DNA of 37,387 nucleotides from Methanobacteriota archaeon. GTDB taxonomy: Archaea; Thermoplasmatota; Poseidoniia; Poseidoniales; Thalassarchaeaceae. The position numbers and the translations under genes were made by a program. Shown piece after piece: positions 32,244 to 36,921 of the stretch (its first letter is position 1; every line of letters begins with the position of its first letter). Below the pieces are notes generated by a model, which did not search any database, was not told the DNA's origin, and saw nothing but the letters and a program-made list of their open reading frames with translations. The DNA lies in contig NZWD01000036.1 of assembly GCA_002698225.1 (NCBI GenBank), positions 26,575 to 63,961 of the forward strand. Direction: 5' to 3'.

Positions 32244-34352
32244 ATGGAGCCGCGTGGTGATATCAGAGAGCCGGGCGAACTCGAACCCGCATCCTTGGGT
32301 TTCATGTGTGGCTTGGAGATCCATCAGCAACTGGATACCGGCAAGTTACATTCAAGGATGTCCAGCGATTTATTCGACTATAGCATCGATGAGATACCAG
32401 AGAGTTGGACACGCTCGAGTCGTAGGCTAAGGGCCTCTGAGGGCGAGTCAGGGCAGGTTGATGTGGCTGCTCGCTTTGAGCAGAAGAGGAATCGCTCCTT
32501 CGTTTACATCCAACCCCCTAACGCCGGATTGATTGAGCTAGACGAGGCCCCCCCACTGGAGCATGATGACGAAGCCATCGATATCGTTCTGACCATGGCT
32601 GGAATGATGGGGGCTAAACCAGTCTCAGCATTACAGGCGATGAGGAAGACTGTTGTTGATGGTTCCAATACTAGTGGCTTTCAGAGAACTACGCTTGTCG
32701 CAACCGATGGTGCAATCAAAACTGAAGAGGGCCAGGTCGGCGTCGATGTAATCTGCCTCGAGGAAGATTCGGCAAGAAAGCTAGACACTAGACCATCACC
32801 GTCTGGTGAAGTGGTCTTCTACACTCTGGATAGGCTAGGTATGCCGTTGGTAGAGATTGCCACCGCACCAGACATCAAATCTCCCGAGCATGCACGCGAG
32901 ACCGCTCTAGTCCTAGGAACACTGCTGAGAGATACTCGCAGAGTAAGGCGAGGACTCGGCTCTATTCGCCAAGATCTCAATGTCAGCTTAGCATGCGGTG
33001 ACAGGGTCGAGATCAAGGGTTGTCAGGACCTTGATTGGATTCCACGCATCATCAGACTCGAGATGGCTAGACAATTGCATATGTACCGACTGGCCTGCGA
33101 ATTGCGTTCCGTGGCAGGCCTCCCTCCCCTGCCTGTAGATCGGGCAGACGACGAGGTGCCGGTGGAGAACAGGGTCGCCGCTGCCGCCGCTGCAAGACTT
33201 CCCTTTGAGACTCATGACCTTACTGGGCTATTCGAGAACTGTGAGTCCGAGATGGTTCGAGACTCAATCTCATCGGGCTCGAACTCCCTCGCTGTTTCTC
33301 TGTCTGGTTTTGCCGGAAAACTTGGCTCGAAACAGACCGATAGCGAAGGTGCGCAACTCCCCCGTCTAGGGAGGGAACTCGCCAGCGCGGCAAAGGTGGC
33401 CGGTGTAGCCGGTATATTCCACTCAGACGAGCTGCCGGCATATGGAATCTCATCTTCTGAGGTAGAAGCCGTGAGAGATGCCCTGTCTCTGTCCGAAGAG
33501 GACGCCTTCGTTCTATGTGTTGCACCCAAGTGGCAGGCAGAACTGGCTTTAGAGTCAGTAGTGCTACGCACGCGACTTGCCTACCACCGAATACCTCGTG
33601 AGGTTCGTAATGTAGTAATCAGAAAAGGCCAGCCCGAAGACGGCACGACCACTGCGATGAGACCACTCCCGGGTGGGGCTAGGATGTATCCTGAAACCGA
33701 CATCCCAGTGGTGCAGATTACCGAGCAGCACTGGCACAATATCAACCAGGAGTTACCCCTTACTTCTGATCAAAGAAAAGAGCGCCTTCAGGGACTGGGC
33801 GTCTCTGATAACCAGATTGAGGCTATTCTCGGCTCTGAGATGGATGACATTCTCATGATGGGTGCGGAAGGAAGGCCCGAGGGGTGCCCGTCCCTGAATG
33901 CAAAGACTTGGGCCTCAGCCATCCTTGACAATCTCCGCTCCGAGGTAGCAGAAGGGAGTAGTAAGGGTGAGACAGAGGTACCATGGTCAGTTCTGACCCT
34001 AGCAATTCATGCCCAGGAGATTGGGGTGGTGACTAGAGAGGGAGTGGTACCAATGGCGCGCATGCTCTGGCTGGAAGGACCAGCAACCGACTCTGGATTC
34101 GATCAGAGATTAGAATGGTTCTCGGACAAAGCCGAGGAAAAAGGATTCACTCCTGCAGATACTGGGGCTGTTGAGGCCGCGGTAGAGGAAGTTTTGGCCG
34201 AGAACGAAGACATGGTTCGAGATAGGGGAATGGGTGCGATGGGACCTCTGATGGGGGCCGTTATGGGCAAACTGGGAGGATCTGCTGATGGCAAGGCGGT
34301 GAGCGATGCATTACGCTCCAAGATTGCGAAACTATCATCCGAAGAAGGTTGA
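32244..34352 (+). CDS. gatE: Glutamyl-tRNA(Gln) amidotransferase subunit E
   Basis: With GatD, converts Glu-tRNA(Gln) to Gln-tRNA(Gln) in archaea. The 702-residue protein has the GatB/GatE kinase-like core (GFMCGLEIHQQLDTGKLHSR, then VDGSNTSGFQRTTLVATDG, MPLVEIATAPDI, GLGSIRQDLNVSL and VEIKGCQDLDWI). The inserted AspRS-like GAD domain (around 330-430) separates GatE from GatB. After that comes PETDIPVVQI and a helical tail domain with a YqeY-like end. ATG 32244 is 31 bases after mcm. gatD is not in the window. The stop overlaps the next gene. Confidence 0.95.
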   Translation: MEPRGDIREPGELEPASLGFMCGLEIHQQLDTGKLHSRMSSDLFDYSIDEIPESWTRSSRRLRASEGESGQVDVAARFEQKRNRSFVYIQPPNAGLIELDEAPPLEHDDEAIDIVLTMAGMMGAKPVSALQAMRKTVVDGSNTSGFQRTTLVATDGAIKTEEGQVGVDVICLEEDSARKLDTRPSPSGEVVFYTLDRLGMPLVEIATAPDIKSPEHARETALVLGTLLRDTRRVRRGLGSIRQDLNVSLACGDRVEIKGCQDLDWIPRIIRLEMARQLHMYRLACELRSVAGLPPLPVDRADDEVPVENRVAAAAAARLPFETHDLTGLFENCESEMVRDSISSGSNSLAVSLSGFAGKLGSKQTDSEGAQLPRLGRELASAAKVAGVAGIFHSDELPAYGISSSEVEAVRDALSLSEEDAFVLCVAPKWQAELALESVVLRTRLAYHRIPREVRNVVIRKGQPEDGTTTAMRPLPGGARMYPETDIPVVQITEQHWHNINQELPLTSDQRKERLQGLGVSDNQIEAILGSEMDDILMMGAEGRPEGCPSLNAKTWASAILDNLRSEVAEGSSKGETEVPWSVLTLAIHAQEIGVVTREGVVPMARMLWLEGPATDSGFDQRLEWFSDKAEEKGFTPADTGAVEAAVEEVLAENEDMVRDRGMGAMGPLMGAVMGKLGGSADGKAVSDALRSKIAKLSSEEG

Positions 34353-35008
34353 ATAACCGAATTGTTCGACCATCCAAATCCATGTCTGATTTCGTCGCAC
34401 TGATTGCTATCTTCGTACTAATATCAATAGCAGTAGCAGGCTCTACTGCCGAGGAGAATCGACTCAAGTCACTGTCTCTGACTTGGGTGCTGTTATTGTT
34501 GATCACTTTCCCGACTCTGAGTACCGAGTGGGCTCGGATGACATCTGAACTAATCGACGATGAGGGTGACTCTCACTATGGTCTTCCAGATATCTGGGAA
34601 GACAAACAAGTCGTTTGCTTCCACTTCCCAGATGGACATGCTCCGGATGGATATGGTGGCGCTAGATATCATATCGACAGCGATGGGACACAGTTCATGA
34701 CCGACTCCGATTGGAACCAAACCGGAGCATGTATCGGTGGTTTCTCAGACTTCGAAAACGGCCTCGCTTTGATGGATGAAGCAGTTGCAACTTCTAGAGG
34801 AGACTTTGCTTACAACTCAACTCAGTACACCTTCGGTATCTTCTTCAACTCGATTGCAGAAGTCAATCCATGTGATGTCTCAGCCTGCTCGGATACATCA
34901 GGAGCTTACTGGGTACTGTTCCATAACGGGCAGATGGCGATGGTTGGAATCAGCGACCTAGAGTTGGATGAAGATAGTGTAATCACTTGGTCTATCGAGA
35001 CTTGGTGA
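34349..35008 (+). CDS. Membrane-anchored DUF4430-like (transcobalamin C-terminal-like) protein
   Basis: The 219-residue protein has two hydrophobic stretches at the N-terminus (FVALIAIFVLISIAVAG and LTWVLLLLITFPTL), then an extracellular domain. The end of that domain, GAYWVLFHNGQMAMVGISDLELDEDSVITWSIETW, matches the DUF4430 pattern (W-x-x-x-x-N-G...G-D-x-I-x-W), the fold of the C-terminal part of transcobalamin. Four cysteines (VVCFHF, GACIGG, NPCDVSACS) may form disulfides. The TTG at 34349 overlaps the gatE stop and gives a basic N-terminus; ATG 34382 is the alternative. The next gene is an ECF-type substrate component, a known partner of DUF4430 proteins, so vitamin capture is likely. Confidence 0.75.
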   Translation: MNNRIVRPSKSMSDFVALIAIFVLISIAVAGSTAEENRLKSLSLTWVLLLLITFPTLSTEWARMTSELIDDEGDSHYGLPDIWEDKQVVCFHFPDGHAPDGYGGARYHIDSDGTQFMTDSDWNQTGACIGGFSDFENGLALMDEAVATSRGDFAYNSTQYTFGIFFNSIAEVNPCDVSACSDTSGAYWVLFHNGQMAMVGISDLELDEDSVITWSIETW

Positions 35009-35066
35009 GGGTTCCATTAGGACAACCATCAAGAGCAAGTTGAATCTGACTAGTAAGGGGGCGCAC

Positions 35067-35723
35067 ATGTTCGATGCACACGCTGTCACAATCGGACCTC
35101 ATGGTATGCTGTTCATCAACGCTGCAATGCTGTCCTTGATTGGCTGGGCACTGTGGAGGGCTGAGCGCAAACTTGCCTCCGGTAGCGATTGGATTCTGCT
35201 GATGATGCTGGGTGTTTTTGCGGTCTCCGGAAGAGTTCTTCTTGAGCCGATTCCCAATATTCAACCAGTCACGGTGATAGTCCTGCTTGCCGGTGTTCAC
35301 TACGGTGCTCCAAGAGCCATTGCTCTGGCTACCGCAGTCACTCTGTGCTCCAACTTGATTCTCGGACATGGTCTGTGGTCACTCTACCAAGCTGTAGGAT
35401 GGTCTGCGGTGGGTGTGGTTGGAGCCCTAATGTCCAACCAGTTGCTAATCGATGGTAGACTTTCAGTCAAGCGACTGGCGATTGTAGCTGCCGCTTCGGC
35501 ATTTGCCTTCGACTGGATTGTCTCAGTCAGCGTATTACACTCAATGGGAAGTGAACTCCTTCTGCCATACATTGCAGCCGGACTCCCATTCGATTTGCTT
35601 CACGCAGTCGGAAATGTGGCATTCGTTGCTTGGCTGGCAAACCCCCTGAGCGAGGTTATGTCCAAGCATCTCGATGCATCCCCTCCAATGGCGGTGAGCG
35701 AATCTGTCTCGAGCACCTTCTGA
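35067..35723 (+). CDS. ECF transporter substrate-specific (S) component, possibly for cobalamin
   Basis: The 218-residue integral membrane protein has about six hydrophobic segments. The central part, SGRVLLEPIPNIQPVTVIVLLAGVHYGAPRAIAL followed by LCSNLILGHGLWSLYQAVGWSAVGVVGAL, has the layout of ECF S components: P-N-I-Q-P-V, then S-N-x-x-x-G-x-G-x-W-x-x-x-Q-x-x-x-W. That variant is seen in predicted cobalamin-type S components. ATG 35067 follows AAGGGGG with good spacing. The energising A, A' and T subunits are not in the window. Substrate is inferred from the adjacent DUF4430 protein and remains open. Confidence 0.78.
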   Translation: MFDAHAVTIGPHGMLFINAAMLSLIGWALWRAERKLASGSDWILLMMLGVFAVSGRVLLEPIPNIQPVTVIVLLAGVHYGAPRAIALATAVTLCSNLILGHGLWSLYQAVGWSAVGVVGALMSNQLLIDGRLSVKRLAIVAAASAFAFDWIVSVSVLHSMGSELLLPYIAAGLPFDLLHAVGNVAFVAWLANPLSEVMSKHLDASPPMAVSESVSSTF

Positions 35724-36197: not shown

Positions 36198-36755
36198 TTA
36201 AGCCATCTCGGCGATCTTAACCGAAGCCAAAGCTCCGATACCGACCATCACGCCGTCCATGACCCAGTTGCTAGCAGCAGCAGCTATGTCGCCACCGTTA
36301 CCCATTACTTGTCCGGCCATGTCCATGTTTCCACCGACCATTGTACCCAGGGCCATCACTACAAATGCAGTGACCCAAGCATCACAGCGTGTGTACACTG
36401 TCCAAAGCAGTGCACCACCAGCTATCATACCTAGAGCAGGCCACATGTCAAACGCCCACATTTCTGCGGCGGTGACATCCGACGACTCGCCAGAGGTCAG
36501 TATGACCGTTGCGAGCACTGCTCCGATAACCTGAGCTACCAGGCGGCTTCCATTGTCCATCCAACTGTCCTGATCAGCGAGGTCACCTGTCATTATGTGT
36601 CCCCAAGTGATCACGGGCAGTATGTGAGCTCCACCAATTGCCATCCAAGCTGCAGCTAGTACGAGAGCACCACCTAGGTCCATCTCACCAACTACAAGCC
36701 AGCATACCATGAAGGCGCCGCCCATTTCATTCATCATTGTGTCTGTATCAACCAT
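36198..36755 (-). CDS. Aquaporin-like (MIP-fold) membrane protein lacking NPA motifs
   Basis: The 185-residue protein has about six hydrophobic stretches. The order of features follows the MIP family: NEMGGAFMVCWLVVGE (first helix glutamate), GGAHILPVITWGHIMTG where aquaporins have S-G-G-H-x-N-P-A-V-T, NGSRLVAQVIGAVLA (the A-Q-x-x-G-A of helix 3), and GTMVGGNMDMAGQ where they have T-G-G-S-M-N-P-A-R. Both Asn-Pro-Ala boxes and the selectivity-filter Arg are thus changed, and the protein is about 50 residues shorter than usual. Water or glycerol transport cannot be assumed. GGAGG eight bases before the ATG and a clear TATA box suggest good expression. Confidence 0.72.
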   Translation of the reverse strand: MVDTDTMMNEMGGAFMVCWLVVGEMDLGGALVLAAAWMAIGGAHILPVITWGHIMTGDLADQDSWMDNGSRLVAQVIGAVLATVILTSGESSDVTAAEMWAFDMWPALGMIAGGALLWTVYTRCDAWVTAFVVMALGTMVGGNMDMAGQVMGNGGDIAAAASNWVMDGVMVGIGALASVKIAEMA

Positions 36756-36763
36756 TGTTGTTT

Positions 36764-36812
36764 CCTCCTCACTATAGTGAGTGAATCGCGGGCTTCCACT
36801 ACGATTTATAAT
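36764..36812 (-). promoter_or_regulatory. Promoter of the aquaporin-like gene with palindrome at the start site
   Basis: On the minus strand: ATTATAAAT (36804-36812) is a TATA box, the palindrome CTCACTATAGTGAG (36768-36781) begins about where transcription should start, and GGAGG (36764-36768) is the Shine-Dalgarno. A dimeric regulator bound at the palindrome would block initiation; that is inference. Confidence 0.55.
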
Positions 36813-36921
36813 AGAATCCTACGAATTCCGGAAATATACCCCCTAAAATGAGTTATTTTCCGTAAGCCGGTGTTACCCAAGATACCTGATATCTACTCCC
36901 ACATTCATTTTCCTAACATCC

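Follow-up and report, generated by a model that had tools for sequence, protein, structure and literature searches.

A putative aquaporin-derived protein family without the pore asparagines and filter arginine in Candidatus Poseidoniales

The heart of the aquaporin pore is usually taken to be two asparagines and a filter arginine. Deviations from this pattern have been described: the available sections of a review of prokaryotic aquaporins present boxes in which one or two positions differ, such as TPV/VPA in Segniliparus and NPN/NEA in Sulfolobus (PMC6912568), and trypanosomal AQP2 has NSA/NPS boxes with Leu in place of Arg (PMC4150397). In addition, some major intrinsic proteins (MIPs, or aquaporins) pass undissociated lactic acid (PMC4150397). 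The proteins described here, termed family A, resemble these altered-box MIPs in departing from Asn-Pro-Ala (NPA) and, as some of them do, from Arg (PMC6912568; PMC4150397). By contrast, the Segniliparus, Sulfolobus, and AQP2 examples retain more of the motif, while family A is without either Asn, the Arg, and the Glu of TM4 throughout an order, and nothing like it is described among the altered-box prokaryotic aquaporins in the available sections of the review (PMC6912568). The order is Poseidoniales, an uncultured group whose metabolism is believed to draw on lipids and peptides (PMC9723583), and our literature search found no paper joining aquaporins with Poseidoniales or Marine Group II. 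An order-wide, fixed loss in these abundant archaea of the surface ocean would amount to a natural experiment on the fold without those residues.

The family A gene studied here lies in a stretch of DNA of 37,387 nucleotides (hereafter the window, meaning the whole stretch analysed), and its translation contains ...GGAHILPVITW... and ...VGGNMDMAGQVMG... as the initial annotation had described. Each of the 13 genomes in the window's genus carries the gene, and dN/dS between close family A orthologues is 0.08–0.28; it is a real and conserved gene under purifying selection. A decaying aquaporin pseudogene, to which the loss of the signature residues might point, is refuted by this ratio, well below 1, together with boxes conserved across the family; the reading frame is also open in nearly all genomes and the same substitutions are fixed across genera, which leaves this explanation a negligible probability. 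A profile built from 22 family A members matched 121 of 293 Poseidoniales genomes, a few of the weaker matches being cross-hits to canonical MIPs or to family B (see below), and gave no match outside Poseidoniales in a phylum sample of 293 genomes. In total, the genomes searched hold roughly a hundred family A genes. Among the genomes searched, family A is confined to Ca. Poseidoniales (Marine Group II), and the viral contigs searched contained no member of family A or family B. Family A proteins differ from MIPs in being very acidic (pI about 4) and rich in Met. The window protein had been called shortened, which is correct in direction (185 aa against a family A median of 202 and 204–237 in canonical Poseidoniales MIPs), although the difference is only modest.

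Searched singly against Pfam and NCBIfam, the window protein matched no MIP model, and against the PDB it reached aquaporin-1 only at E = 0.069. Two other identities, XdhC_CoxI (E = 0.019, single-sequence search) and the weaker Adeno_E3, were both below cut-off and absent from other members, and were taken as chance. At the family level, no Pfam family other than MIP was matched by more than two members, and MIP itself by 6 of 22 (best E = 8.1e-5); in genome searches the best family A match to PF00230 scored 24.4 bits, just under the curated Pfam cut-off of 25 bits, which family A does not reach. Formate/nitrite transporters (FNT) have an aquaporin-like fold without NPA boxes and pass small acids; family A differs from these in that its sequence similarity is to MIPs, and none of the 22 members matched the FNT Pfam profile at E up to 10. 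Comparison of profiles with hhalign likewise connected family A to MIPs (PF00230; archaeal AqpM-like and canonical Poseidoniales proteins). Family A scored 62.1 over 150 columns against canonical Poseidoniales MIPs, family B, a second divergent family, scored 77.2 against canonical MIPs, and the two families scored 165.5 against each other, whereas reversed, column-shuffled, and hydropathy-preserving shuffled controls reached at most 25.1 (160 shuffles per query). The family B profile also found canonical MIPs in other Thermoplasmatota, with E up to 1.5e-11. Because the profile scores greatly exceed the controls and family B provides a bridge, the homology of family A to MIPs and its descent from them are well supported at the family level. 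The ancestry proposed in the initial annotation is thereby borne out, although the window protein alone gives no MIP match.

Structure prediction, which had been suggested as a check, did not confirm an MIP fold, with mean pLDDT of about 40–43 in both AlphaFold runs. The model built with 10 family members (mean pLDDT 40) gave no informative fold match and was unlike an MIP. The model with canonical MIPs from viral contigs added to the alignment (mean pLDDT 43) has eight helices ordered as six TM helices and two re-entrant half-helices, and its best fold matches were aquaporins, which is circular. A membrane protein of another fold, resembling aquaporins by chance or composition, would be consistent with the first of these models, with the lack of a confident MIP fold, and with the failure of the single protein to match any MIP model. 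It is nevertheless a very improbable explanation, given profile scores far above the reversed and hydropathy-preserving shuffled controls, the bridge via family B to canonical MIPs of other Thermoplasmatota, and conserved MIP landmarks that occur in order along family A proteins.

An alignment of family A, family B, canonical MIPs, and Marine Group III-type MIPs indicates which of these landmarks persist. The repeat-1 scaffold is kept in family A, including the TM1 Glu (invariant), the loop B His and Pro within G-A-H..P..T of box 1, and the TM3 Gln, and Gly-Ala motifs are shared with MIPs as well. Box 1 in loop B reads Leu-Pro-Val/Met/Ala throughout family A (H-[ILV]-L-P-[VMA]), with no Asn-Pro-Ala; the replacement noted at the outset therefore applies to Asn and Ala (N-P-A to L-P-V), while Pro is retained in the members seen. 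In loop E, N-P-A-R of box 2 has become M-[AG]-x-x in family A, with an invariant Met, and mostly [VILF]-G-x-x in family B. Both former Asn positions are now hydrophobic (Leu, Met) in family A, the TM4 Glu is lost, and the Arg of the ar/R filter is gone, with Gln in the window protein and other non-Arg residues in other members.

The register of box 2 was fixed by two glycines, that of (T)G(A) before the box and the final one of NPARxxG after it. On this reading of the alignments, Asn corresponds to M146, Pro to A147, Ala to G148, and Arg to Q149, which agrees with the VNPGV found at this place in Marine Group III proteins. The register given in the initial annotation (Asn = D145, Arg = G148) is probably shifted by one residue, so that its Arg-to-Gly change would instead be Arg to Gln149; its main point stands, as box 2 lacks NPA and Arg under either register. 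Judging from the aligned homologues, the altered boxes, with the loss of both pore Asn and the filter Arg, are fixed across family A. The safest statement is that this is an order-specific membrane protein derived from MIPs that lacks the aquaporin pore signature, with a conserved promoter element (described below) tying it to lipid and acetyl-CoA genes. Judged on the defining residues it should not be classed as an aquaporin, even if it may function in the manner of a channel. A functional water or glycerol channel that accommodates altered boxes would be compatible with MIP descent, with natural MIPs that have changed boxes or lack the Arg, such as trypanosomal AQP2 (PMC4150397), and with the failure to detect any other MIP relative in most genomes of the genus. 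Because neither Asn, nor the Arg, nor the TM4 Glu survives, and hydrophobic residues occupy the two Asn positions, we consider such a channel distinctly improbable.

Table 1. Features of the family A gene and its leader in the window.
Feature	Positions	Strand	Basis
Family A MIP-derived membrane protein (P0001), CDS of 185 aa, ATG start	36198..36755	minus	ORF
Box 2, D145-M-A-G-Q-V-M-G152 (canonical MNPARTFG): Asn to Met, Pro to Ala, Arg to Gln	36300..36323	minus	register from flanking Gly
Box 1, H44-I-L-P-V-I-T50 (canonical HxNPAVT): Asn to Leu, Pro kept	36606..36626	minus	alignments
TM1 Glu (E10), shared with canonical MIPs	36726..36728	minus	alignments
Shine-Dalgarno GAGGAGG	36764..36770	minus	sequence, kept in orthologues
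Leader hairpin CTCAC-TATA-GTGAG, overlapping the Shine-Dalgarno	36768..36781	minus	sequence and orthologue leaders
TATA box TTATAAAT, -56 to -49	36804..36811	minus	sequence, kept in orthologues
Palindromic promoter element, left half degenerate (GGTATCTTGGGTAACACC)	36869..36886	minus	motif scan

Phylogenetically, families A and B together fall on one side of a long-stemmed branch that has full support (100/100). Their genes are adjacent in several genomes (L064, L072, L156, L157, L159, L161), and in one locus (L154:1700-4103) genes for family A, family B, and a canonical MIP line up consecutively; this adjacency suggests that tandem duplication, followed by divergence, gave rise to A and B. 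Short MIP-like proteins of Marine Group III (L194-L201, L203) resemble family A in their length and in the loss of both the filter Arg and the TM4 Glu. They differ in that Asn-Pro survives in their box 1 and box 2 mostly reads VNPG, and in forming a separate branch. Their state looks intermediate, and a clade of A, B, and the Marine Group III MIPs has an AU p of 0.565, so that the grouping is neither shown nor rejected. Canonical MIPs, the Marine Group III state, and the two derived families A and B together provide a comparison set.

The gene pairs also bear on what family A proteins might do. A non-conducting MIP derivative, serving as a structural or regulatory subunit (e.g., a silent heteromer partner of family B or of a canonical MIP), a membrane receptor, or a scaffold, would fit the adjacency of A and B, once beside a canonical MIP, as well as the loss of every polar pore determinant tested and the frequent presence in front of family B genes of their own copy of the promoter palindrome discussed below. 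In the window's genus, however, a canonical MIP above cut-off is absent from 12 of the 13 genomes, one of them 97% complete, and searches for family B in the sampled genomes gave only cross-hits; therefore, that lineage is unlikely to have an obligate MIP partner. On balance, a non-conducting role is a serious contender, plausible if short of probable.

The initial annotation had also proposed a strong promoter and ribosome site, and both a TATA box and a strong Shine-Dalgarno sequence do precede the gene and are kept in orthologues. In 46 of the 59 family A orthologues, the ATG is preceded at about -130 or -160 by a palindrome, [AG]GTGTN8ACAC[CT], against a background of 0.23 per kb for a similar palindrome pattern. 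This palindrome starts 74–76 nt upstream of the TATA start in each of the 31 orthologues whose TATA box was recognised. The left half of the window's copy is degenerate (GGTATC). The palindrome is assigned to the family A gene because its position holds when the upstream neighbour is a gene other than cysteine dioxygenase. Closer to the start codon, a stem-loop with a loop of 3–6 nt lies across or directly beside the Shine-Dalgarno in 38 of 59 orthologues, compared with a mean of 4.3 after shuffling and with 11% of other long ORFs, and its stem changes in sequence while pairing is kept (CTCAC/GTGAG, CTCGT/ACGAG, CTCGC/GCGAG). Given the TATA box at about -53, this hairpin may form the 5' end of the mRNA; an Rfam search of the leader gave no match. 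Taken together, the TATA box, the Shine-Dalgarno, the conserved hairpin, and the palindromic site support regulated expression.

The promoter palindrome, in its strict form GGTGTW-N6-WACACC, is new in the present analysis. It is rare in Poseidoniales, with 0–4 sites per genome, and it recurs upstream of genes for enoyl-ACP reductase (four genomes), citrate synthase (three genomes), an AMP-binding acyl-CoA-synthetase-like enzyme (three genomes, in one only through its frame), malate dehydrogenase with a divergent gene of the PNT/alanine dehydrogenase family (two genomes), and HMG-CoA synthase (two genomes). It is also found upstream of genes for fatty acid desaturase, thiolase, a xanthine/uracil permease, and, in both families of the order, CD36 family proteins. 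A number of further sites fall within ORFs or precede unrelated genes and seem to be chance occurrences. For the relaxed form, RGTGTWN6WACACY, a backwards control was as frequent as the pattern; therefore, only the strict form and its recurrence before the same gene carry weight. The spacing from palindrome to start codon is variable in the lipid and acetyl-CoA genes, unlike in family A. The palindrome would thus associate family A with fatty-acid, acetyl-CoA, and TCA-cycle genes through a shared DNA motif, by a recurrence seen mostly in genera other than that of the window. The recurring sites (L233-L249, L252-L255, L264, L265, L267) suggest an undescribed Poseidoniales regulon of lipid, acetyl-CoA, and TCA-cycle genes, and the shared palindrome offers a testable lead on lipid use in this order.

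The CD36 family is best known from animals. CD36-family proteins are encoded in Poseidoniales (L244, L264, L265, L267), with the Pfam CD36 model above cut-off in L244, L264, and L267.

Between a conducting and a non-conducting role we lean, tentatively and only slightly, toward the former, namely a facilitator whose hydrophobic centre would admit a small compound, weakly polar or undissociated, from lipid or acetyl-CoA metabolism. The family A protein would still form six helices and two re-entrant half-helices, while the hydrogen-bonding, Arg-gated water path would no longer be present, and the hydrophobic centre might pass a small, weakly polar or undissociated metabolite such as a short-chain acid. 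Expression would occur when a putative lipid-responsive regulator acts on the palindrome promoter. We lean toward a facilitator because of the MIP homology, the fixed boxes, the purifying selection, the palindrome before lipid and acetyl-CoA genes, and the precedent of lactic acid. This reading is weakened by the low confidence of both fold models and because a non-conductor would be equally expected to lose the Asn residues, the Arg, and the TM4 Glu, and its link to lipids is weakened because the motif occurs mostly in other genera and the window's copy is degenerate. A broader scenario, which we regard as rather unlikely, is that an aquaporin gene was duplicated in Ca. Poseidoniales and its pore rewired into the paralogous families A and B for uptake or handling of lipid-derived compounds, within a lipid/acetyl-CoA regulon that would include the CD36-like protein and the acyl-CoA-synthetase-like enzyme.

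In the window's lineage, the family A gene is a stand-alone unit between a convergent PTH2 gene and a divergent cysteine dioxygenase gene, and the neighbours are therefore uninformative on its function. Also in this region, two genes for short DUF4430-like and DUF6580-like proteins (window positions 34349-35008 and 35040-35723) lie between a GatB/GatE-domain gene and PTH2, and this pair is syntenic in 24 loci.
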